Shown here: positions 16,596 through 30,017 of the stretch, one piece after another
Numbering within the stretch: position 1 is the stretch's first letter
Layout: each line of letters starts with the position of its first letter
Origin: Geobacter sp.
GTDB lineage: Bacteria; Desulfobacterota; Desulfuromonadia; Geobacterales; Geobacteraceae
Length of the DNA stretch: 36,458 bases
NCBI GenBank assembly: GCA_027356255.1
Contig: DAIEGL010000021.1
Coordinates: 1-36,458, forward strand
Direction of reading: 5' to 3'
Made by a program: the position numbers and the translations under genes
The notes under the pieces: generated by a model
Databases searched by the model: none
The model's input: the letters and a program-made list of their open reading frames with translations, nothing else
What the model was told of the DNA's origin: nothing

Positions 16596-16950
16596 TACCT
16601 CTCCGAAAAACACGGTGTCCCTTCCGCGGTCCGTCAAGTCCCTTCGCAAATGGTTTTAATATTGCAGCTATCATCCTGCAGTTCACCGTGTTGTGTGAGA
16701 TACGAGCCTTTTTAGGCGGTTATCCCGGCCGGAGGGAGAACGAACCCTGCAAATTTTGTGTTATGCCGTGTGTCAGGCGTCATATTCCAGAATAGAAAAC
16801 TAAATATCAGTGTTTAATTAGAATCATAACACCCCGATATTGCTTAATTAGTAATAAATAATATTAAATTTTATATATATTTGCAGGTCTATGTCTGCCG
16901 GATTTTGCTGGACGGTATGGTTCCGGCGGACGGGTTTGCAGGGAGGGTGC
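16596..16950. other. Gene-free control region before the cytochrome gene
   Basis: A 355-bp region with no credible gene. The first half is GC-rich and holds a possible sigma-54 element: TGG (16651-16653) and TTGCA (16662-16666) with GG-N10-GC spacing, but the -24 half reads TGGTT rather than TGGCA. Further on are a GCCTTTTTAGGC hairpin and an AGGG-agaacgaa-CCCT hairpin (16734-16753 area). From about 16790 to 16885 it becomes very AT-rich and contains a direct repeat. I looked for a cyclic-di-GMP (GEMM) riboswitch core, common before Geobacter cytochromes, and did not see one. Confidence 0.6.
16811..16855. repeat. Two TGYTTAATTAG direct repeats exactly 30 bp apart
   Basis: TGTTTAATTAG starts at 16811 and TGCTTAATTAG at 16841. 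The 30-bp period is close to three helical turns, so both copies face the same side of the DNA, as expected for tandem operator half-sites. They lie within the AT-rich block about 100 nt before the cytochrome start. Confidence 0.45.
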
Positions 16951-19900
16951 ATGATCGGCAATAATCTGAGGCGGACCGGTAACCGCATAATGATGCTGCT
17001 TCTTCTGGCAGTGACGGTTACCGGGGGCGTGGCTGAGGGGTCGATTTCCTGCTACGATTGCCATGGGACAAGGAAAACCGCCGACTTCCGGCCGCTGGAT
17101 GGCAGTTATCGGAATATCACGACCGGCGGCTTTCAGGGGAAGCACCGCACCCATCTCCCCCCCTATGCGGGACCGGCAAACTGCGCCATCTGCCATCCGG
17201 GGAGCGAAGGATATAGCACCTCCCATCGTGACGGAAAGATCAAGCTTTCCAGCAACATCAACAATTCCCCCGTCAGCGCGGTTTACAAGAACCGCACCTC
17301 ATCGTTCGGCAACTGGACTTCGCCCTTTCCCCAGACTCCCAACCCGGTTCTCGGCAGCTGCACCAACGTCAACTGCCACTTCGAAAAGAGCACGCCGCAA
17401 TGGGGAAACCCGCTGCTGGAGGCCCCGGCAGGGTGCAGCGCCTGCCACGGCTTGCCGCCGGACGACGGGGGGCACCCGTCCCAGAGCGGTCCGGGCAAGA
17501 AGCATGGCGATTACTACGGCGTTGACGAGAACAGCTGCGGCAAGTGCCATCCGGTCCACGCCACGTTTTCCCACGCCACCAGCGCGGGGCGCCGCGGGCT
17601 GGCGGTACAGTTTCTTTCTACGCCTAACAGCGGCGGCTCATATTCCGGCAATGTGGATTATCCCAACTACCTGCCGTCGCAAAGCACGGGAAGAAACGGC
17701 GCATGCAGCAACCTTTACTGCCACTCGAACGGCAACCCCACCGGCCGGGCGAACGCCTTTGCCGCTCCGACCTGGGGTGGGACGCTCGACTGCACCGGAT
17801 GCCACGGCGGAAACGGCGACACCTCGACCATGAGCCCCCGCCATGACAAGCACGCCAAGGATTACCAGTACGCCTGCGAAAAATGCCATAGCGCCACCGT
17901 CACCGGCTCCGCAACTATCGCGGATCGCACCAGGCATGTCAACGGCGAGAAGGACGTCTCCCTGAAGGACGGCGGCAGCTATGTGCAGGGCTCGAAGCAG
18001 TGCACGAACAGCTACTGCCACTCGAACGCCCTCGGTAGACCCGGTTTCAAAACGCCATCCTGGAGCGACCAGGGGCCCTACAAGTGTTTTTACTGCCACC
18101 GCGGTTTGACGACCGACTCGACCTCCGACAACTGCGCCGAGATCGGCGGCTCCTGGGACGGAGCGCGCGGCGTCTGCACCCCTTTCGTAAACATTTCCAC
18201 CAACGCCCACGCCAAGCATGTGGGTCCCCAGTGGATCAGGAAATACCCGTGCAGTTACTGCCATTATCAGACGGTGGACGCGGCCGGGAATATCAAGGAC
18301 ATGACAAGGCATGCCGACGGGACCAAACAGGTGGCGATCGATCCGCAGTGGAGCATCGCCGGTCGCCCCGCCCCCTACTTTGACCCGGCAACCCGCAGCT
18401 GCAGCAACGTCTATTGTCATTCCGACGGCACGGTGAACCCCCTCGATACGGAAGTGAAGCAGCCGAACTGGCCCAACAAGGGGTGGTCCCGCTGCAACGC
18501 CTGTCACGGCCATCCGATCAGCGGAACGTGCAACGCGAGCGGCTGCCATGACGGCACCAGCCACGACGGCAAGTTCTGGCCCGTCTTCACCCGCTGGTCC
18601 ACCGGCACGGAATGGCGGGCGGCGATGCCGATCTTCCATAACGAAGGGGCGGGAGAGCCCCGCGCCAACTCCCATCCGCGCCACACCGGCACCTCCTTCA
18701 CCTGCGGCAACTGCCATGCTGCAACGGTCATCAACGGGGACTGCAAAACCTGCCATGCCGGCGGGCTTCCCCCGGGGAACATGGGGGAAACTGCCCACAT
18801 CAATCCCGCCTACCACGTGAACAAAACGCGTGACGTCATATTCAACGCCGGCGGTTCTTACCGCCCCACGAGCAAGACCTGCTCCAACACCCGCTGCCAT
18901 ACCGGTGCCACCGATCCCCAGTGGGGGGCTTCGGTCAATTCGAGCATCATCTGCCTCAATTGTCACGGCACCGCCGGCCCTGACGTGGACACCTTTGCCG
19001 GCTTCGACAACGGGACCATGGCGAAGATCAACCTCAGCCAGTGGGTGACCACCGGCCATGGCCGCTATTCGTCCGCCGGCCGTTATCCGGGGTCGAACAA
19101 TCCCGCTGCGAACTTCCCGAGCAATCCCTGCTGGTACTGTCACGACAATTCGGTCATCCACGGGGACGCATCCAATCCGTTCCGGCTCAGGAGGCACCCC
19201 CAGTATGAGCAGCGCTTCGAAAAGGAGTGTGTCTACTGCCACATGGAGCACAAGGATTACGAGTGCCTCCAGTGTCACGTGGGGCAGATGGAGAGCCTGG
19301 CGCCCCAGGCTACCACCGGCGGCATCGTGGTGAAGCTGCGCACAGGCGGCTTCCGGACCGATTGGCCCGACCACGGTCATCTCGATTCCTGCACCTCGAC
19401 CGGTTGCCACGATTCGGATGACGGGACCTTTCCGACGGGGGGGCACAAGGGACATTCAACCGGCGCCGGCACATGGACCCCCACCCAGAAGGCCGACGTC
19501 AAGAGCCAGTACGTCATGATGGGGGTCTGCCTGCAGTGCCACGACGACGATTCCGGCGGCCAGTGCACCTTCTGTCACACTGCGCCATCTGACAATCCCG
19601 GCAAGTATTCGCTCGGTTTCGACCCCGGCACGGGCTTCATCAAGCCGAAAAAGGCACGTGCCTCGGCCGCCCACTTCGGCAAGAAGCATTACGGTGCCTT
19701 CATCAAAACACCGAATGCCTGGGAGAAGGACGCAAACGGCAAGTTCCTGGGGACCTGGAAGGGGGGGAAATTTTGCTGGGACTGTCATGACCCCCACGGC
19801 GACGACAACATCTACATGATCCAGAACCAGGTGGCGACCACTACGGACGGGATATTCGGCATACCCAAGACCCGGGCGGCCGTCTCCTTCACCCAGAAGA

Positions 19901-22038
19901 CAACGGGGAGCGACTACGCGGGCGCCTCCAACAGGATCTGCAACGTCTGTCACGGCCCCGACTCCAAGCACTATCTGAACAACTTCAGCGACGGGCATAA
20001 CTCCACCAAGATCTGCACCAACTGCCACATGCACCGTTTCGCGGACGCCCATGCCGATTCCCAGAGCTGCAACTCGTGCCACAGCAACGCCAAACCGGTG
20101 CCCAAGCATGTGGCATTCGGCCTGCCGGTCATCTGCGTCAAGTGCCATGCAGGCTCCATCGGCGCCAGGGCAGACGTGGTCGGACAGTTCAACAGCAACT
20201 CGCACCACGTCCAGAACCCGGGGGTGGCGCTCACCGGCCGACAGTGCTTCGCCTGTCACTGGGAAGCGACTCCCTACGGAACGATCGACACGAGCCGTCA
20301 CGAGGGGTTCGATTTCAGGACCTACTCGGGGGTGAAAAACGCCCAGGTGGACCTTGTGGTCTGGCGGCCGGGAGAACGGCCGACCTTTTACAGCAGCACT
20401 TCCGCGGTCCAGTTCTTTGCCAACCGGATCACCACGGACAAGGAGCGGGATGAGATCGGCAAGGTGACCAACCACTGCCTCTCCTGCCATTCCGATCAGA
20501 ACAACGAGTCGACCCCGTTCGGCGACTGCAAGACGCCGCGCCAGTATGCCTGGGACGGCCAGTCGATCGCCGCCCGCTACTCCCAGCTGGGAACGACCAC
20601 CTGGGGAAAAGTGAACTCGGGCACCTATCCCAACGCCAACAAGAAGGACACGGTCACCAAGGCGTTCTCGGCCCACGGCAATGCGGCCGCCAACCAGGGG
20701 GGATGGAACGCTGCAGACGGTTACGACGCAGCACCGCCGAACACGAGGGGGGGAGGGAAGAACGTCCAGTGCTACGACTGCCACAACTCTCACGGCTCCA
20801 AGGTCAACGGCACCACAACCAGCTACGTGACATTCAACAACACGCGCAACGGCGGCAACCTGAAGGAGACCCAGAACGGCAAGGGTGGATATGGCGCCAC
20901 CTATATGGCCCAGGGGAACGCTTCGGGCAAGAACCTGTATGCGGCAGGCGCAGGACAGTGCTTCGATTGCCACGAGAACCAGAACGCCTCGTCTTCCAGA
21001 CCATGGGGCTACCAGTCGACCTACAACGCCAGCCAGCCCATCATGGGGTACGACGACAGCCCGCGTTTCGGCGGGGGGACCAAAGGGCGTTATACCCGCT
21101 TCCCGTTCCGCAAGACTACCGTTGCCGGGACCCACTTCTCCGCTTCGAGCATGCTCAACTACACGACGCATGAGCGGATCAACGGCCTCTGCACCCCATG
21201 CCACGACCCGCACGGGGTCTCCCCGACCCTAGGTGAACTGATGTCATACGCAGTGCCGCTTCTGAAGGGGACATGGATGACCAACCCCTACAAGGAGGAT
21301 GCCCCTCCACCAAGCGCCGCCGGCGGTATCGCATCCCCACCTTACCGGTGGGGCGGCTACTTCGGTGCCTCGGCCGGATCAACTCAGTTGACCTTCGACA
21401 ACCGGAAGCCGACCGTTCCCGTACCGGTCGGCTGGAACACGGACCGTAACACCTTCAACACGAACCGGATAGCGGAGAACGACAAACAGTTCGCCGGCCT
21501 GTGCCTCCGGTGTCACCAGCAGAATAAGCTGACCGACGGGGTGAACAAGAACACCCCCTGGAAATCGCGCGACCGGATGCACGAATCGGTCAAGGGGTGG
21601 GGGGCAAATACGGAGCACTCGTTTACCTGTTCGAAGTGTCATCAGCCCCACTCATCCGCCCTGCCGCGGCTCATGGTGACCAACTGCCTCGACTACCAGC
21701 ACCGGGGGCGGGTCGCCTCCGGCGGCAAGGTCTCTGCGGCCGACGTCCTCTACAGGAGCCGCGCCGATTGGACCGGCGGTCACTGGGGCTACCCGATCGC
21801 AGGGACGATCAGCGGCAAGATCAGCACGAGCGATCCCGCCTACCTGGCGGACCCGTACAAGTACGAGGCATATACCCAGTGCCACCTGCGGCGCGCCGAT
21901 ATTACCATTACCCCCCCCTACGGTACTTGGGATAATAGTTATACCATCATAATTCCGGACCAGTGGCCGCAGGAGGATATGTGGAACAACGTGACCCCGT
22001 GGCCGAGCCTTGTGCCGCCGCGCAGTTACAGCCCGTGA
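16951..22038 (+). CDS. Giant multihaem c-type cytochrome (29 CX2CH plus 7 CX4CH motifs)
   Basis: An exported 1695-aa protein with a Sec signal (basic MIGNNLRRTGNR, then IMMLLLLAVTVTGGVAEG). I count 29 CXXCH motifs and seven CX4CH motifs (CTNVNCH, CSNLYCH, CTNSYCH, CSNVYCH, CNASGCH, CSNTRCH, CTSTGCH), up to 36 haems. The CX4CH copies all lie in the N-terminal half (about residues 135-820), usually as CX4CH, a Trp-containing spacer, then CXXCH, the repeat known from Geobacter cytochromes; the C-terminal half has only CXXCH. GGAGGG before ATG 16951 sets the start; the frame is open 20 codons further from ATG 16891. No membrane anchor or lipobox is evident, so it is probably periplasmic, surface-attached or extracellular. 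A role in electron transfer to external acceptors is likely from its class. It resembles large Geobacter Omc-type cytochromes, but I do not assign a name. Confidence 0.93.
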   Translation: MIGNNLRRTGNRIMMLLLLAVTVTGGVAEGSISCYDCHGTRKTADFRPLDGSYRNITTGGFQGKHRTHLPPYAGPANCAICHPGSEGYSTSHRDGKIKLSSNINNSPVSAVYKNRTSSFGNWTSPFPQTPNPVLGSCTNVNCHFEKSTPQWGNPLLEAPAGCSACHGLPPDDGGHPSQSGPGKKHGDYYGVDENSCGKCHPVHATFSHATSAGRRGLAVQFLSTPNSGGSYSGNVDYPNYLPSQSTGRNGACSNLYCHSNGNPTGRANAFAAPTWGGTLDCTGCHGGNGDTSTMSPRHDKHAKDYQYACEKCHSATVTGSATIADRTRHVNGEKDVSLKDGGSYVQGSKQCTNSYCHSNALGRPGFKTPSWSDQGPYKCFYCHRGLTTDSTSDNCAEIGGSWDGARGVCTPFVNISTNAHAKHVGPQWIRKYPCSYCHYQTVDAAGNIKDMTRHADGTKQVAIDPQWSIAGRPAPYFDPATRSCSNVYCHSDGTVNPLDTEVKQPNWPNKGWSRCNACHGHPISGTCNASGCHDGTSHDGKFWPVFTRWSTGTEWRAAMPIFHNEGAGEPRANSHPRHTGTSFTCGNCHAATVINGDCKTCHAGGLPPGNMGETAHINPAYHVNKTRDVIFNAGGSYRPTSKTCSNTRCHTGATDPQWGASVNSSIICLNCHGTAGPDVDTFAGFDNGTMAKINLSQWVTTGHGRYSSAGRYPGSNNPAANFPSNPCWYCHDNSVIHGDASNPFRLRRHPQYEQRFEKECVYCHMEHKDYECLQCHVGQMESLAPQATTGGIVVKLRTGGFRTDWPDHGHLDSCTSTGCHDSDDGTFPTGGHKGHSTGAGTWTPTQKADVKSQYVMMGVCLQCHDDDSGGQCTFCHTAPSDNPGKYSLGFDPGTGFIKPKKARASAAHFGKKHYGAFIKTPNAWEKDANGKFLGTWKGGKFCWDCHDPHGDDNIYMIQNQVATTTDGIFGIPKTRAAVSFTQKTTGSDYAGASNRICNVCHGPDSKHYLNNFSDGHNSTKICTNCHMHRFADAHADSQSCNSCHSNAKPVPKHVAFGLPVICVKCHAGSIGARADVVGQFNSNSHHVQNPGVALTGRQCFACHWEATPYGTIDTSRHEGFDFRTYSGVKNAQVDLVVWRPGERPTFYSSTSAVQFFANRITTDKERDEIGKVTNHCLSCHSDQNNESTPFGDCKTPRQYAWDGQSIAARYSQLGTTTWGKVNSGTYPNANKKDTVTKAFSAHGNAAANQGGWNAADGYDAAPPNTRGGGKNVQCYDCHNSHGSKVNGTTTSYVTFNNTRNGGNLKETQNGKGGYGATYMAQGNASGKNLYAAGAGQCFDCHENQNASSSRPWGYQSTYNASQPIMGYDDSPRFGGGTKGRYTRFPFRKTTVAGTHFSASSMLNYTTHERINGLCTPCHDPHGVSPTLGELMSYAVPLLKGTWMTNPYKEDAPPPSAAGGIASPPYRWGGYFGASAGSTQLTFDNRKPTVPVPVGWNTDRNTFNTNRIAENDKQFAGLCLRCHQQNKLTDGVNKNTPWKSRDRMHESVKGWGANTEHSFTCSKCHQPHSSALPRLMVTNCLDYQHRGRVASGGKVSAADVLYRSRADWTGGHWGYPIAGTISGKISTSDPAYLADPYKYEAYTQCHLRRADITITPPYGTWDNSYTIIIPDQWPQEDMWNNVTPWPSLVPPRSYSP

Positions 22039-22051
22039 CGGAGAAAGAGAC

Positions 22052-25000
22052 ATGAGAAGACTCATTACATCCATAGCCATCTTACTTGCCCTGGCGACGC
22101 CGGTCCTGGCCAGCGGGGGGGGCGATCTCCCCGGTCATCCGCTCATCGATTTCCGTAAGGGGAAACAGGAATCGCGTGCGGCGGCGATCGTGCCGGCTAG
22201 CGGGGCGACGGTCGTCACCGGCTACCAGAGCCTGGCCGGCGACGGCAACGACGACGTCTACACGGTCAAGTATGCGGCTGACGGCGCGGTTGTCTGGAGG
22301 GTAGCTTACGACGCCGGCGGCGGCAGCGACCAGGGGCTGGCGGTGACGATCGACAAGTCTGGCGATGCGATCGTCGTGGCGAGCGTCATGAACGCCGGCA
22401 ACTATGACGTATACGTGGTCCGTTACCGCGACAACGGCACCGGCACCCCAGCGGTGGTCTGGAGCAGGACCTGGTCCGGAGCGGCCGGGAGGACCGACAT
22501 CCCCCAGGCGGTTGCCTACGATCCGGTCAACGACCGGGTTTACGTGGCCGGCTACTCGAACAACGGCAACAACGACGACTACCTGTTGCTTGCCTTCAAC
22601 AACAGTGCGACGGGCGACAACCCGCCTCTCTGGACGAAGACTTATGATGCAGGGGGGGCGGACCGGGCTTACGCCGTCGCCGTTTCGCCGGACGGGAACG
22701 GCATCGCCCTGACCGGCGAGTCGTCCAACGGCACGGACCTTGATCTGGTCACTGTCCTCTGGGACGCTGCCGGCGGCCAGCTCCGCGTCTGGCCCAAGAG
22801 CGGCGCAGGCTCCTACAACGATCGCGGCACGGCGCTCGCCTTCACGCCCGCCGGGAATGTGGTGGTTGCGGGCTACCTCACCAACGGTCGCGGGGACGAC
22901 CTCTATTCAGCCGAGCTGGCGGCCGGCTCCGCTACACCCCTCTGGGAGGCTGTCTACGATGCCGGTTTCGACGATCAGCCGGACGCAGTGGCGGTAGACC
23001 CGGCGGGAGATGTCTATGTTGCCGCCACGGCCGGGGTTCTGCCGGCATTTTCGAAACTTTTCGTCGTCAAATACCACAAGAACGGGACCGCAGTCCCGGA
23101 CACCGTCTGGGCCACCACTTACGATGCCGGGTCGATCAACGCTTCCGGCGCTTCTGCGCTTGCGGTGGATCCGGCGGGGGGCGTCTTCGTTGCAGGGTGG
23201 CGCGACTACGCAGGGGTGAAGAGAGTCGTGACTGCGAAGTTCAGCCGCAAGAACGGCCGGCTCCTCTGGGACAGGGAATGGAGTGGGGTGAACGGCAACA
23301 GCTCCCGTCCGGTGGGGATCGGACTCGCGGGGCAGGGGGTGGTGACCGCCGCCTGGACCGACCGGACGCAGCCCCTGGACGGCGGGACGCAGGCCGCCAC
23401 AGGGGGATCCAAGACCTCGCTGCAAAACGGAGCGAAGTCCTGGGGCGCAGACCAGTGGGCGGGCTACACCCTCTACATGGCCAGCGGCCTTAACAAGGAC
23501 ATCTTCCGCCGCATCCAGGGAAACGACGCCACCATTATCACTCTTTCCGCGACCCAGGCGCTTCCCTACGCTGTGGCTGGCGGAGACCTCTACTACCTCT
23601 ACGACAAGGACGACATCGACTACGTGGTGCTCCGCCAGGACAAGGGGACGCTCGATCCGCCGACCGGCCTCGCCGCCCAGGTGCTGAACAATACGTCGGT
23701 ACGCCTCTCGTTTTTCGACAACACCGAGACCGAGACCGGTTTCAAGGTGGATGTCAAGATCGGCGAAAACGGGACCTGGAGCCAGGACGCATACACGATG
23801 CCTGCCCCCGACCAGCCGGGCACCGGTATCGTCACCTTTGACGTGACAGGGCTCCTTCCCGACACCAATTACTACTTCAGGGTCAAGGCATACGACGGCA
23901 CCGGCAGCGGCGATCTTTCCGGAGAGGCGAACGCCCTCACCAGGGTCGCCACCTACGCTTTGCCGGCGCTCACCTATGTTTACGCCGATCCGGCGGCGGG
24001 GGATGACCAGGCGAACGATATTGCCTCCTTCTCGGGGGGGGCGGTGGTCCTCACCGGCACCATTCACGCCGATCAGAACGGCGCGGGTGCTCCTTCCAAA
24101 GATTACTACACGGTAAAGCTGAACCGCAACACCTTTGCCGTGCTCTGGCAGGACCGCCGCGACGGCGGTTACGACGAGGACGATGACGCCGTTGCCGTGA
24201 CCGTTGACCCGAATCTGGAAACCGTCGTGACAGGCAGCTCCAGCCAGAGCGTCTCCGGCGTGGGCAACATACCTTCGGTCTGGACCCACAAGTACCCCTT
24301 TTCACCAACCATCGACGGGGCGCTCGAGGCGACCCCCTCATGGACCGATCAGCTGAACGGCGCCGGCAAACTCTCCGACCACGCCGATGCGGTGGCTGTC
24401 CAGGGGGTCTCTCCGTACGCTGTTGCCGTTGCCGGTCACGGCAATGCGGACCTTTCCAACGTCGACTATTATGTGAGAAAACTCTCTGCAACCGGGACAG
24501 TCCTCTTTACGGCCCAGGGCCATCTGGGGGGGAACGAATACCCAGCCGCCGTTTCCCTGGATGCGGCCGGAAATGTGTTTATCGCCGGCCGGGTCGAGCT
24601 GGCCGGAAACAACGACTGGTTCGTCGCCAAGCTGGACGGCGTCAGCGGCACCGTCCTCTGGAGCGATACCTACGGCGGCAGTGGTGACGACCGGGCGCTG
24701 TCGCTCACCACCGACGCCGCCGGCGATGTTTATGTGGCCGGCTATGTCACCGATGCGGCGACCGGTTTTACGAACCAGGTGGTCATCAAGTATTGGGGCG
24801 GTGCGACCGGAATAGCAGACCGCCGCTGGGTCAGGATCTATCCGGTGGGTACACCGGCAGGCAATTCGGCCGCACGCAAGATCGCCTACGACAGCTTCGA
24901 CAACGAGATCGTGGTCGCCGGTGAGGTTTATCGCGGCGCCAATGACCGGGACCTGGCCGTCCTCCGCTACGATACCGCGGGGACCCTCCTCTGGGAGAGC

Positions 25001-28000
25001 GAGCTCAGCCGCCCAGGCACCGATGAGGTCCTGACCGGTCTTTCCCTCGATCCTTCCGGATACATCTACATTGCCGGGGACACCGGTGTGAGTCCCAATA
25101 CCGACATCGTCGCCGCCATCTATACCTCCGGCGGTGACTACGTAAAGTCGTTCCTCTACAACGGGGCTGCGGGTAAGGAAGACCATGCCGCAGCGATTAG
25201 TGCCAACAAGTTCGGCGAAGGTTTTGTCGCCGGCTACACCATGTCCGATGCCGGAGACCGGAATTTCCTCGCCCTCAAGATCGTCAATGACCTGGTCGTC
25301 ATGCCCCATACGCCTTTGGCCGTTGCCGAGGCGGACTCATCCCGTATCGACCTGTCATGGACCAACGTGACCGCGGGTACCAGCCCGTACCTTAAGCGGA
25401 GTGTTCAGGGGGGCGGTACATGGGTCGATCCTTCGGGAACGGTCAATGGCAAGCTCGCTGCGGACGCCGCCTCATTTGTCGATACCGGCCTGGCTCCCAA
25501 CACCTCCTACTGCTGGCGACTCTATGCGGAATTGAACTCCGTCACCACCCGTTACAGCGAGTTCTGCGCCACTACCACCCTGGCGAAACCGGCCGCCCCG
25601 GTCATAACCAACCCGAGCCCGGCAACGACCAACTCGCTCCACGTCTCCTGGCCCAACATCGCCGGCAATACCGGCTACCTGCTCGAACGGAAGACCGGGG
25701 CAGGGGGGACCTATGCAACCGTCGCCACCCTTGCGGCAGATACGCCATCATACGACGATGCCGGTCTCTCCACGGCGACGAATTACTACTATCGTCTATC
25801 CGTGCAGAACGTCGCCGGCTGGTCATTGGCTTCGCAGGATTCCGCGCCGGCATACACCGCTCCGAACCCGATCTCGAGCTGGTCGGGCGCCTCCGCTCCG
25901 GACGCCACCCATGCCAACCTGTCGTGGTATTACCCCGGTTCGGAATTCACCGGGATCAGAGTCCAGCGCAAACCCGCCGGGGGATCGTGGACGGAAGCAG
26001 GGATTGCGGGGCGGGTCTTCAGCTATGGCGACAGTGGCCTTGCCCCCAACACCGCCTACACTTACCGGATTTACCTTAACTACAACGGGGTGGAGAATCC
26101 GACCCCGAGTCCGGAGATCGTCGTAACGACACCGCTTGTGCCGCCGACGCTCCTTTCCGCCGCCCCCCTGACGGCAACCACCTATACCGCCACCTGGACC
26201 CAGGTGGCGGGCAACACGGGGTATGATCTGGTCGGCAAGAGCTGCCCGGCAAGCGCTTCGGTCGCTCAAATCCTCGCCAATCCGTCCACCTCTTGCTGGG
26301 GCACAATCTATACCAATGCCATGCCGGCCGACGCCCTTTCCGGCTCGGGGGGGGGCACGCTAGACCCCTACTACCGGGGATGGTACGTCTCGGTCAGGAC
26401 GAAGAGCGGCGCCACGACTTCGGCGGACAGTAACGGTATCGTCGTCTTTCCCCCTCTGGCGGTCACGCTTTCCAACATCGACATCCCGGCCTCCAACCAG
26501 CTCCGGCCGTCCTGGACCGACACCTATGAAGACAACTTCGACGTCCAGCGTCGCCCGCCATCCGGCACATGGGAGACGGTCGCGACGGGGATCGCGGCAA
26601 ACACCCTGAACTGGCTCGACACGACGGTAACCAACGGCAGCCAGTATTGCTATCGCGTTCGCGCCTACACCGCAGCCGGCGGGCCTGCCGAAGCGTGGTC
26701 AAATGAACTCTGCCAGACGGCCCAGGCGCCGCCGGCCAAGCCGTCGCTCTCCCTTTCCACCCCGACAGCGACGGATATCCGGCTCGACTGGGACAACACG
26801 AATTTCCCGACCGCGATGAACTTCGACGTCTATCTGAACAGCTACCTGTACAGTTCCGGCGGCACGCCGGAAACGTATCCCGGTTATTGGGGAGGGTGGT
26901 GGAAGCAGACGACCGTGTCTTGCTCGACGGCGACCTGCAGTTACACCTACCCGGCAGGGCGTGGACCGGGAATCCAGGCTTTCGTGCGGATGAGCTACTT
27001 CGGGACCGTCATCGACTCCCAGACGATCAGCCCGTCCTACGGCTACGCCCAGACCATGCCTTCTCCTCCCGGCATCGCTTCGACCTCGTCCTCGGATTCG
27101 TCCATAACCGTAAGCTGTGGCCGTGTCGAACAGGCCTACGGCTACAACATCTATTACAAGAAGGCGGCCGACGGGGCCTGGAGCGGGCCGTTGTCAGCAC
27201 CCCGCTCCTGGAATCCGCCACCTTACACGATCACCGGGCTCGCCGCCGGCACCCAGTACCAGGTGAAGGTCGAGTCGGTCGGCAAGTCCACCGAATCAAA
27301 CGATGCGGTTGCCAAAAACGTCTGGACGCTCAGCTCTGCCCCTACGATCACCGGCATCTCGGGGGTGAGTGCCGACCAGGCGACCCTCTCCTGGACCCCT
27401 TCGGCCGGGGCGACATCGTACAAGCTTGAGCGCTCCAGCGACAACGCCACCTGGACCCTCGTCACCAGCCAGAACGTGTTGAGTTATGCGGACAGCGGCC
27501 TTTCTCCGGGCATGACCTACTGGTACCGGGTCAAGGCGGTCAACGCCGGAGGTGACTCCGCCCCGTCGGCGTCCGCGAGCACCACTACAATACCGGCCAC
27601 GGCCGGCGTGCCGTTGTTGATTACCCGTTCCGATAATCGGATCACGGTCGGCATCCGCCTGGTAAAGGGGGCCACCGGTTACAAGATCTACAGGAAAGAC
27701 GGCGGGAGCGGGTCCGGCCAGAACCTCGCAGCCACCATCAACGTGCCGTATGCAGAGTGGTTCTGCGGTTCGGACATCTCAACCATCGCCTGTGCGTCTC
27801 CGGTGGCGAAAATCTTCGATTATGACGACTCCGCAGCTCTCATCGCCAACACCGCCTACTGCTACTCGCTGGTCGCCTTCAACGGTTCCGGCGAGGCGGC
27901 GATGGGGCCGGAGTACTGCGGCGCTACCAGCCCTTACGGTCCGGCGACGTTGAACGCCGTGCCCTTGAGCCCTTACAAGGTGCAATTCTCAATCACACCC

Positions 28001-28912
28001 GGGAACGGGACCGCTCCGACCGGTTACCAGCTGGAGTTTAAGCAGGGGGATAACTGGGGTGTCGTTGCCAGGATTCCTTACGGAACCAACAGCTACACCC
28101 TGTCGGGGATGCTTGGCGCCGGAGGAAGCGGCATCTTCCGTGTGCGTCCCTACAAGCTCCTGGCCGATGATTTCTCGTCCGGGATCAATCCGGCAATCTG
28201 GTCGCAACGGGTGATCATTAGGGATCCAAGCAACCTGACGGTGGTGGATAACCAAACCCCGCCGCTCGACTTTACGACATCGAACGGCAATTCATCCATA
28301 GTCGCTGCGAACGGAGTGGTCACCTTGAGCGAATCGTCGAGCGGAAACGGTGCTGCCAACAGCTGGAACTCGGCGCGGCTGTTTCTGGCAGATGTCACGC
28401 CGCTCTTAGGCGACTTCGATTTTTCGACGAAGCTCCGCCTCCCGGCCGGGGAGGTGACCGGGAACCAGTACCACGTCTATGCCCGGCTCCAATTCAACAT
28501 GCCTGCAACTGCCGGAAGCAGCGCCCGAAACAACTTCTTCTACATCGGACGGTACGGCTCGACGGCCAATGGATACGAAATCTGCTGGACTCTGGATGGG
28601 GTCGGTTATTGTAACAGTGCGAATGCCGACAATACGTCCGGGGGATTGCGGATCACCAGGATCGGGCGGACGGTGACCGGCTGGGTTGCCAATGGCGCGG
28701 GGAATGGTTGGCAACCGTTCCAGAGCAATGCCGAATTCCAGGCGGCGCCCGGTTACTACGGCATGGTCTCACAATTCCTTGCCAGGAGCGAGGCCATGGC
28801 GCTTGTCACCGAGCTGGACGATACCGTGCTGATCGGGGGGATCACCTCGCCGTCCAACGATGTGACCGTTACCATGCCTGCCTACGTCAACGGGCAGAAC
28901 TCGTGTCCGTAA
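22052..28912 (+). CDS. Giant exported protein: two beta-propeller-like blocks, about 11 Fn3 domains, C-terminal lectin-like domain
   Basis: A 2286-aa protein beginning 13 nt after the cytochrome. Signal peptide MRRLITSIAILLALATPVLA. Layout by eye: first SBBP-type beta-propeller repeats, about residues 30-535 (units like DVYVAGYxxN, AVDPAGDVYVAAT); one Fn3 (537-632); second propeller block (640-1080, for example DAAGDVYVAGYVTDAAT); about ten Fn3 units (1085-2030) with recurring GLAPNTxYxYRxxA strands; and a C-terminal beta-sandwich (about 2035-2286) beginning DDFSSGINPAIWS, like LamG/DUF1349 folds. Cysteines are absent from the propellers but paired in several Fn3 units, suggesting disulfides. 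No haem motif and no membrane anchor. Start: weak GAGAAAGAG before ATG 22052; an open frame extends to 22010. It contains runs of 8, 8 and 9 G. A surface scaffold or adhesin partner for the cytochrome is inferred. Confidence 0.85.
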   Translation: MRRLITSIAILLALATPVLASGGGDLPGHPLIDFRKGKQESRAAAIVPASGATVVTGYQSLAGDGNDDVYTVKYAADGAVVWRVAYDAGGGSDQGLAVTIDKSGDAIVVASVMNAGNYDVYVVRYRDNGTGTPAVVWSRTWSGAAGRTDIPQAVAYDPVNDRVYVAGYSNNGNNDDYLLLAFNNSATGDNPPLWTKTYDAGGADRAYAVAVSPDGNGIALTGESSNGTDLDLVTVLWDAAGGQLRVWPKSGAGSYNDRGTALAFTPAGNVVVAGYLTNGRGDDLYSAELAAGSATPLWEAVYDAGFDDQPDAVAVDPAGDVYVAATAGVLPAFSKLFVVKYHKNGTAVPDTVWATTYDAGSINASGASALAVDPAGGVFVAGWRDYAGVKRVVTAKFSRKNGRLLWDREWSGVNGNSSRPVGIGLAGQGVVTAAWTDRTQPLDGGTQAATGGSKTSLQNGAKSWGADQWAGYTLYMASGLNKDIFRRIQGNDATIITLSATQALPYAVAGGDLYYLYDKDDIDYVVLRQDKGTLDPPTGLAAQVLNNTSVRLSFFDNTETETGFKVDVKIGENGTWSQDAYTMPAPDQPGTGIVTFDVTGLLPDTNYYFRVKAYDGTGSGDLSGEANALTRVATYALPALTYVYADPAAGDDQANDIASFSGGAVVLTGTIHADQNGAGAPSKDYYTVKLNRNTFAVLWQDRRDGGYDEDDDAVAVTVDPNLETVVTGSSSQSVSGVGNIPSVWTHKYPFSPTIDGALEATPSWTDQLNGAGKLSDHADAVAVQGVSPYAVAVAGHGNADLSNVDYYVRKLSATGTVLFTAQGHLGGNEYPAAVSLDAAGNVFIAGRVELAGNNDWFVAKLDGVSGTVLWSDTYGGSGDDRALSLTTDAAGDVYVAGYVTDAATGFTNQVVIKYWGGATGIADRRWVRIYPVGTPAGNSAARKIAYDSFDNEIVVAGEVYRGANDRDLAVLRYDTAGTLLWESELSRPGTDEVLTGLSLDPSGYIYIAGDTGVSPNTDIVAAIYTSGGDYVKSFLYNGAAGKEDHAAAISANKFGEGFVAGYTMSDAGDRNFLALKIVNDLVVMPHTPLAVAEADSSRIDLSWTNVTAGTSPYLKRSVQGGGTWVDPSGTVNGKLAADAASFVDTGLAPNTSYCWRLYAELNSVTTRYSEFCATTTLAKPAAPVITNPSPATTNSLHVSWPNIAGNTGYLLERKTGAGGTYATVATLAADTPSYDDAGLSTATNYYYRLSVQNVAGWSLASQDSAPAYTAPNPISSWSGASAPDATHANLSWYYPGSEFTGIRVQRKPAGGSWTEAGIAGRVFSYGDSGLAPNTAYTYRIYLNYNGVENPTPSPEIVVTTPLVPPTLLSAAPLTATTYTATWTQVAGNTGYDLVGKSCPASASVAQILANPSTSCWGTIYTNAMPADALSGSGGGTLDPYYRGWYVSVRTKSGATTSADSNGIVVFPPLAVTLSNIDIPASNQLRPSWTDTYEDNFDVQRRPPSGTWETVATGIAANTLNWLDTTVTNGSQYCYRVRAYTAAGGPAEAWSNELCQTAQAPPAKPSLSLSTPTATDIRLDWDNTNFPTAMNFDVYLNSYLYSSGGTPETYPGYWGGWWKQTTVSCSTATCSYTYPAGRGPGIQAFVRMSYFGTVIDSQTISPSYGYAQTMPSPPGIASTSSSDSSITVSCGRVEQAYGYNIYYKKAADGAWSGPLSAPRSWNPPPYTITGLAAGTQYQVKVESVGKSTESNDAVAKNVWTLSSAPTITGISGVSADQATLSWTPSAGATSYKLERSSDNATWTLVTSQNVLSYADSGLSPGMTYWYRVKAVNAGGDSAPSASASTTTIPATAGVPLLITRSDNRITVGIRLVKGATGYKIYRKDGGSGSGQNLAATINVPYAEWFCGSDISTIACASPVAKIFDYDDSAALIANTAYCYSLVAFNGSGEAAMGPEYCGATSPYGPATLNAVPLSPYKVQFSITPGNGTAPTGYQLEFKQGDNWGVVARIPYGTNSYTLSGMLGAGGSGIFRVRPYKLLADDFSSGINPAIWSQRVIIRDPSNLTVVDNQTPPLDFTTSNGNSSIVAANGVVTLSESSSGNGAANSWNSARLFLADVTPLLGDFDFSTKLRLPAGEVTGNQYHVYARLQFNMPATAGSSARNNFFYIGRYGSTANGYEICWTLDGVGYCNSANADNTSGGLRITRIGRTVTGWVANGAGNGWQPFQSNAEFQAAPGYYGMVSQFLARSEAMALVTELDDTVLIGGITSPSNDVTVTMPAYVNGQNSCP

Positions 28913-28926
28913 GGGGGGGCGAGTTT

Positions 28927-29814
28927 ATGGAAGCAAGATGGAAATCCGCGTTCGTCAGGTTCCTCTTCCTCTGGTTGGTCTCCACGGGGTATGCACATGC
29001 GGGCGGCCTCGTCACGGGACAGCTCGCGCCCGAACAGGAGCCGCTCCGCTGCGCCGTCTTTGCCTATGAAGCCGACAAGGCGCCCACGTCGCCTTACGCT
29101 GCGCCTTTGTTTGCCGCTCCCTGCGCCCCTGACGGGAGCTTCAGCATGATGCTGCCGGAGGGGACGTACCTGATTGGCGCCGGTATCAGCATCGGCGGGC
29201 ATACGTGGGCCGCCCAGCCCGATCCGGCTCGTCGCCTGCCGCTGGTTGGCCTGCAGGCGCAAAAGATCATCGTCCGCAACGGGCTGAACTACAGGTTGAA
29301 GGCTGCGCCTGCGGCCGACAGTCGGCTTGCGTTGATTGCGCATGCCGGGGAGCAGCCAACGGTCGAACTGTCTCCGCCCGATGTCCGGCGGACGGCGACC
29401 GTCACGCTCACTGGGTTGGTTCGCGACAAAGCCGGCCGACCGCTTGCCAATGCTGTCGTCCAACTCCGGGAACCGGGAAACGGCGGGACGGCGACCGGTC
29501 GGCCACGCTACCTGAGTGCCCCCACAGATGCCGGTGGGAAGTATCGTATCGAAGGGGCGGCGCCGGAGCGCTATGTGGTCTGTGCGTTCAAGTCTGACCC
29601 CGACCAGGGCCTCCTTACCGGTGAGTCTGCGTCGCTCGACTTGGCGGATCCGACGGTCCCGCTTGCCATCGACGTGTTCATCCGACATGATATCAACGCC
29701 CCCATGCCGGCGCATCGGGAAACGACGACCGCTGCCGGAAACGGTGATGCTTCGGCCGGCGACGCGACCAAGCGGGTTGAGCCGTTGCGGGGCCCCTCTG
29801 CTGATCCCTTCTGA
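28927..29814 (+). CDS. Exported protein with carboxypeptidase-regulatory-like domain
   Basis: A 295-aa protein, third gene of the module, 14 nt after the giant Fn3 gene. Signal peptide MEARWKSAFVRFLFLWLVST then GYAHAGG. The first part (about residues 25-135) looks like a transthyretin-like beta-sandwich: GLVTGQLAPEQEPLRCAVFA with FSMMLPEGTYLIGAG. The second part (about 160-260) is a clearer CarboxypepD_reg-like domain: VTLTGLVRDKAGRPLANAVVQL, then TDAGGKYRIEGAAPERYVV. The tail is low-complexity and hydrophilic. AAGGGGGG upstream supports ATG 28927; the frame is open further upstream inside the previous gene, without a good site. Such domains often act as small carbohydrate- or protein-binding modules on the surface. 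No enzyme motif is seen. Confidence 0.8.
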   Translation: MEARWKSAFVRFLFLWLVSTGYAHAGGLVTGQLAPEQEPLRCAVFAYEADKAPTSPYAAPLFAAPCAPDGSFSMMLPEGTYLIGAGISIGGHTWAAQPDPARRLPLVGLQAQKIIVRNGLNYRLKAAPAADSRLALIAHAGEQPTVELSPPDVRRTATVTLTGLVRDKAGRPLANAVVQLREPGNGGTATGRPRYLSAPTDAGGKYRIEGAAPERYVVCAFKSDPDQGLLTGESASLDLADPTVPLAIDVFIRHDINAPMPAHRETTTAAGNGDASAGDATKRVEPLRGPSADPF

Positions 29815-30017
29815 TTCTATTCTTCATTGCGAATAATCGGCGCCGGTCGCCTGTCGCCGGCCCAGATTACTTTCACCGCGATCCACCGATTGTTTCAGCA
29901 CATCAAACTTTCCTTTGAGCGTTATAACGCCTTTTTATTGCCATTTTATTGCTGTTGACAGTCGAATGATAATGTATTATTTTCATTTTTCACTTTTTTC
30001 TGACAGATGAGGTCGTC
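29815..30017. other. Gap between the cytochrome module and ilvD
   Basis: A 203-bp region. It contains a GC hairpin without a T-run (GCCGG and CCGGC near 29843-29864) and, at 29919-29930, the perfect 12-bp palindrome GCGTTATAACGC followed by CTTTTTATT. The palindrome may be a weak terminator for the module or an operator. The ilvD promoter candidate follows. Confidence 0.4.
29955..29983 (+). promoter_or_regulatory. Candidate sigma-70 promoter for the ilv operon
   Basis: A perfect TTGACA (29955-29960) and TATTTT (29978-29983) are 17 nt apart. A better-looking TATTAT at 29975 is only 14 nt away. The leader would be about 28 nt, too short for a leader-peptide attenuator or T-box. Confidence 0.5.

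Follow-up and report, generated by a model that had tools for sequence, protein, structure and literature searches.

What might three consecutive genes for exported-type proteins, the first of them a multihaem cytochrome, be doing in a Geobacter genome, placed between tsaB and ilvD and otherwise surrounded by housekeeping genes? The window, by which we mean the whole stretch of 36,458 nucleotides that was analyzed, belongs to a 3.4-Mb draft genome and holds on its forward strand a gene for a giant cytochrome, a gene for a still larger scaffold protein, and a small third gene. The first-pass annotation had read them as a three-gene exported module that forms an extracellular electron-transfer assembly. 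On balance, we lean toward seeing the three genes as a laterally mobile and co-inherited export unit, for which extracellular electron transfer is the most likely use.

The coordinates, lengths and gaps of the unit were verified (Table 1). The cytochrome reading frame runs from the ATG at 16951 to the stop codon at 22036-22038. A gap of 13 nt separates it from the ATG of the scaffold at 22052, and 14 nt separate the scaffold from the ATG of the third gene at 28927, exactly the spacing given at first reading. The equimolar supply that had been deduced from this tight spacing does not follow from it. All three proteins begin with a basic segment, followed by a hydrophobic stretch and an A-x-A-like site, as in exported proteins. 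The N-termini and membrane segments were read from a crude hydropathy scan (not SignalP), in which none of the three proteins showed a lipobox or a further clear membrane helix. Thus, no obvious anchor is encoded in the unit, and a porin match was found neither among the three gene products nor among their neighbours, in agreement with the earlier statement that porin and anchor are both missing. The host genome also carries a gene for a type II secretion secretin.

Table 1. Features of the three-gene unit, in positions of the window
Feature	Position	Strand	Basis or remark
Leader region of the unit	16596..16950	+	contains conserved AT-rich stretch, ~16840-16885
Cytochrome, 1695 aa, 36 haem-binding motifs, export-type N-terminus	16951..22038	+	Pfam/NCBIfam, motif count
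Conserved tail domain of the cytochrome	21610..22002	+	last CxxCH, TNCLDxxHRG, lone CH, WNxVTPW
Candidate long-loop haem site CX64CH (hypothetical)	21685..21885	+	C1579 ... C1644-H1645
Scaffold, 2286 aa, two propellers and Fn3 repeats, export-type N-terminus	22052..28912	+	
First propeller of the head	22118..23647	+	low-confidence insert at model residues 423-504
Fn3 domain between the propellers	23648..23935	+	approximate limits
Second propeller of the head	23948..25294	+	
Fn3 array	25295..28909	+	final Fn3 domain with beta-rich insert (about 28157-28823)
Third gene, 295 aa, exported, CarboxypepD_reg-like domain	28927..29814	+	optional member

The insertion site bears on how the unit came to be here. 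The genes dxr, rseP, tsaB and ilvD are contiguous in ten of ten genomes that lack the unit at this place (eight genera, the congener G031 included), whereas the site between tsaB and ilvD is occupied in four congeners and empty in every other genome tested. Because tsaB and ilvD are direct neighbours in the genomes without the unit, the three genes moved as a single block, either into this site or out of it in the other genomes. Of the two, arrival is the simpler explanation, given that only the four congeners are occupied. A promoter-like TTGACA...TATTAT (29955-29985) before ilvD is kept in occupied and empty sites alike, and therefore ilvD probably retains its own promoter beside the insert. 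At the other end, upstream of the cytochrome, an AT-rich stretch at 16840-16885 (TTAATTAGTAATAAATAATATTAAATTTTATATATATTTG) is nearly identical in genome G033 while the surrounding leader has diverged; it is a candidate promoter or regulator site. Save for the conserved promoter region of ilvD, the scans for promoters and terminators were close to the expectation from shuffled sequences and were not used as evidence. Types of the GEMM riboswitch occur upstream of Geobacter cytochromes; an Rfam scan for riboswitches gave none in the window.

The cytochrome is a member of the CxxxxCH/CxxCH multihaem cytochromes, with both types of motif present and with profiles above their curated cut-offs (TIGR01904, the CxxxxCH/CxxCH domain, 130.8 bits versus 27; PF09698, 53.2 bits versus 21.7). 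It also matches the cytochrome c7 family. The upper figure of 36 haems in the first-pass annotation is accounted for by 29 CxxCH and 7 CxxxxCH motifs, to which one lone conserved CH is added. This CH is part of a C-terminal tail, whose pattern of (T/I/V)(N/D)C(L/F/M)(D/N)xxH, 32-99 residues, the lone CH and then WNxx(T/S)xW is found in 43 of 43 tails. In the window, the tail contributes C1579 and C1644-H1645, and 64 residues separate the two cysteines. An invariant CH that is accompanied by a further invariant cysteine suggests a haem site of the long-loop kind, and the cytochrome would possibly bind 37 haems rather than 36 if this site is occupied. The same two cysteines could instead form a disulphide.

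Could the tail have a different purpose, namely that of a joint? Known extracellular cytochromes of Geobacter form filaments (PMC9473688, PMC6584659), and the conserved tail, together with its candidate additional haem site, might allow the cytochrome to self-polymerize into a nanowire, in which case the scaffold would only cap or tether the filament. We find this very improbable, as PDB searches with the whole cytochrome (E 0.01) and with the tail profile (E 0.1) gave no match to any solved cytochrome, including filament cytochromes of the OmcS, OmcE and OmcZ type, and as the fused relatives described below extend beyond the tail into Fn3 domains, a poor fit to a head-to-tail joint at that place. 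The tail cannot be a tag for the scaffold alone either, because it occurs in cytochromes without a scaffold: L042, L116, L120, L122 and L124 end in it with no scaffold, be it separate or fused. The notion of the WN..TPW tail as a marker of scaffold partners only was rejected on these grounds. L042 (6471-10394, G000:C146) is located in the same genome and encodes a 19-haem cytochrome with the full tail and no scaffold; the genes around it are for membrane proteins and for glycosyltransferase-like or TPR-like proteins.

The scaffold is devoid of haem motifs. Its earlier description as a propeller/Fn3 protein of 2286 residues holds, as the profiles for fn3 (123.7 bits, E 3e-36) and for the SBBP propeller (25.6 bits) are both above their cut-offs and the propeller fold is seen in structural models, which makes it a member of the Fn3/SBBP propeller proteins. 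The AlphaFold2 model of the head (mean pLDDT 79, pTM 0.52), built on a 14-sequence alignment and uncertain in the mutual placement of the halves, contains two propellers linked by an Fn3 domain. Each half of the head compared at Z > 30 with solved propellers, designed and natural eight-bladed ones among them; the number of blades is taken from the model and from these structural matches. Only common propeller folds were listed in the structure comparison, so that the absence of a more telling relative is no evidence, and a PDB sequence search with the head matched chiefly Fn3 domains.

The periplasmic assembly factor BamB also gives a good alignment with each propeller half. As other cytochrome operons pair a propeller gene with a gene for a prolyl isomerase (PMC5539420), and as maturation genes are close to some of our loci, one could consider the propeller protein a periplasmic helper in the assembly or export of the long haem protein and not a surface scaffold. 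The match to BamB is one of fold only, at 12-13% identity. Scaffolds across the relatives are about 2000 to 4500 aa in length, and such long Fn3 arrays, together with fusion to the cytochrome, would be unusual for a reusable helper. We hold this role to be very unlikely.

The distal end of the scaffold has features of its own. A beta-rich insert of about 220 aa interrupts the final Fn3 domain ahead of its last strand; this is the part that had been called lectin-like at first reading. It had no Pfam match and matched no profile named lectin or LamG, and in the profile search against PDB the matches were confined to the Fn3 part. The scaffold of the window has a cysteine two residues from its C-terminus (28904-28912). 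Among 28 scaffolds, 24 have a cysteine as one of their four final residues, following a TTPxYxxGDGTC-like motif, where it might be a disulphide, crosslink or sorting feature; the remaining four share their C-terminal domain with the fused L123. This domain of approximately 510 aa with a YNTR-containing motif at its end, for which there was no informative Pfam family, is present in the very long scaffolds L050, L052, L060 and L067 and in L123 (16388-19900).

Co-conservation of the genes, a check proposed with the first-pass annotation, was examined at two scales. We looked for relatives of the cytochrome and the scaffold across 48 family genomes, eight of which have the scaffold, with up to five cytochrome-scaffold pairs per genome (G003). 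A scaffold N-terminus is present at 21 of these family loci, and without exception a homologous cytochrome precedes it directly, in the same orientation. The 84,980 species genomes of GTDB were scanned with a closer set of scaffold heads, since the full set of 17 gave too divergent an alignment. Pairs were recovered from Geobacter, Geotalea toluenoxydans, MAGs of Geobacteraceae, one 'Deltaproteobacteria' MAG, and six loci in MAGs of Nitrospirota/Thermodesulfovibrionia. Wherever these scaffold loci included upstream sequence, the cytochrome was there, and the intact ones had 31-38 haem motifs. Weaker matches in Bacteroidetes, WOR-3 and archaea were dismissed, being generic propellers that no cytochrome accompanies. 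The gene order of the unit, conserved as it is across genera and phyla, is not a matter of chance. A lack of co-conservation had been named at first reading as a refuting outcome, and this check did not refute the module.

The Nitrospirota members form a single clade for both proteins, inside the diversity of Geobacterales, which fits a transfer of the cytochrome-scaffold pair as a unit between phyla. The distance matrices of the two proteins are also correlated (Mantel r 0.83, a value reached in none of 2000 permutations), although this match is weak evidence, because adjacent genes share their history anyway. The scaffold evolves faster than the cytochrome, as judged from identities to paralogues of 30-38% for the scaffold head of the window versus 51-61% for the cytochrome. 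At L039 (G032:C3:117000-136900), the orthologues of cytochrome and scaffold are broken up over several reading frames, as is a neighbouring ilv gene; these breaks are likely sequencing errors of the assembly, or possibly decay. Recoding from stop codons inside relatives was considered and rejected, as the alignments merely extend one or two codons beyond the normal stop.

A search across the family with the tail domain of the cytochrome uncovered fused relatives. In genus g6, the tail is followed by Fn3-like domains within one chain (L117, L119, L121 and L056). L115, of which L118 is a near copy, has Fn3 and RCC1 propellers behind the tail in the same chain. L123 combines the tail, Fn3-like repeats and the C-terminal domain of about 510 residues in a single chain, and this domain is 63% and 66% identical to the scaffold ends of L050 and L060, and 30% to that of L052; the identity is confined to the C-terminal domain and does not include the propeller head. 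The fused chains continue directly after the WN..(T)xW motif, the point at which the split cytochromes end. Among the sequence-based arguments, these fusions are the strongest for the cytochrome and scaffold parts working side by side. At L117 (12048-13909), and also at L119 and L121, ResB-like and NicO/DsbD-like genes come after the fused cytochrome, a small protein and a beta-helix gene; they are a possible dedicated haem-maturation set of the fused forms.

The main rival to the export unit is co-regulated secretion of proteins that do not bind one another. The scaffold would then be a free secreted adhesin or matrix protein, made together with the cytochrome because one and the same biofilm or mineral calls for both. 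Such a role would suit the frequent occurrence of Fn3 proteins among matrix and adhesion proteins, the faster evolution of the scaffold, and the fact that no docking domain was recognized. The exclusive, one-to-one nature of the pairing and the fusion of the parts in relatives are hard to accommodate in it, and we judge it rather unlikely.

The third protein is a beta protein with a Pfam match to CarboxypepD_reg, and its structural model is weak (mean pLDDT 52). Close orthologues were found only in the four Geotalea loci. By profile, the family extends to genes behind the scaffolds in G038, G047 and several Geobacter and Nitrospirota loci, as well as behind the fused cytochromes of genus g6. 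Many scaffolds have no such gene behind them and hence the third gene is an optional part. Often, a larger exported protein is encoded further downstream, with right-handed beta-helix or CarboxypepD_reg and NosD-like repeats. In two different loci, L063 (17453-18046) and L070 (17687-18253), small exported proteins with a partial match to OpuAC (substrate-binding) are encoded downstream of the unit.

The reading of the three genes as an export unit draws on strict adjacency, block insertion, the fusions, the distance match, the third-gene family, the secretin and the maturation genes. Speaking against it are the lack of an encoded anchor, the presence of the tail also in cytochromes that lack a scaffold, and the generic nature of propeller and Fn3 folds. 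The electron-transfer assembly of the first-pass annotation is partly supported: adjacency, block insertion and fusion uphold the association at its core, whereas the anchorless proteins and the scaffold-less relatives of the cytochrome do not favour it. The genomic comparisons give good support to the association of cytochrome and scaffold; that the proteins form a complex, sit at the surface, are anchored there and transfer electrons is what we infer.

In the export unit as we envision it, the cytochrome would be loaded with haem in the periplasm and then exported, conceivably with the type II secretin that the host encodes. The double-propeller head of the scaffold would dock at or near the WN..TPW tail. 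The Fn3 array would form a stalk, and its variable end would keep the wire in place within the matrix, on a mineral or on a partner cell. An optional adaptor may be the role of the small third protein, and the 36 (perhaps 37) haems would carry the electrons. We consider the unit a good candidate for a surface machine, so far undescribed, through which cells would be wired to minerals or to their partners. A more general proposal, which we put forward tentatively, is that of giant cytochromes that each have a co-inherited double-propeller/Fn3 scaffold docking at a dedicated tail, that exist in split and fused forms, that cross phyla as a cassette, and that have the cysteines of a haem site up to 99 residues apart. 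Many giant cytochromes of Geobacterales are of unassigned use. One family of them now has a defined partner, a tail and natural fusions, and its docking, location and function are thus directly testable. The unit in Nitrospirota MAGs suggests that a cassette for surface electron transfer crossed phyla, and the tail is a concrete test case for haem attachment through cysteines that are very distant in the chain.

How does this unit compare with known systems? The operon of SEEP-SRB1/Desulfuromonadales encodes cytochromes of 26 and 16 haems, a six-bladed propeller and a prolyl isomerase (PMC5539420). It shares with the present unit an exported giant multihaem cytochrome alongside an exported beta-propeller protein, core genes without a membrane anchor, distribution between lineages by transfer, and a function that is putative in both. 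Gene content sets the two apart: the window has a single cytochrome, of 36 haems, a 2286-aa double-propeller/Fn3 protein and a CarboxypepD_reg protein, and no isomerase among the neighbours, and so does not contain the four-gene core of that operon. The porin-cytochrome conduits (PMC4245776) are likewise encoded as units of genes, and they move electrons through the outer membrane or past it, but the present unit has no porin in it or beside it, and its neighbours are housekeeping genes. The filaments of OmcS and OmcZ (PMC6584659, PMC9473688) are built from extracellular multihaem cytochromes of Geobacter, a location that we infer for the cytochrome of the window, with 6 to 8 haems per subunit compared to 36 here. 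No publication naming this unit was found by a literature search whose coverage excluded most subscription journals. Ties between Fn3 domains and electron-transfer cytochromes have precedents. OetF of syntrophic sulfate reducers is a cytochrome with Fn3 domains, proposed to bind the matrix or partner cells (PMC10553843). The fused L117, L119 and L121 resemble it, whereas the Fn3 protein of the window is a separate gene product with propellers. Genes for multihaem cytochromes bearing Fn3 domains are also expressed, at the transcript level, in Fe(III)-reducing soil (PMC6199725). The accessible part of that report links Fn3 to multihaem cytochromes in Geobacter-like Fe(III) reducers, as we do, at the level of domains and with no description of a conserved two- or three-gene unit. 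By analogy, the unit may work along lines similar to those of the known cytochrome/propeller and Fn3-cytochrome systems.
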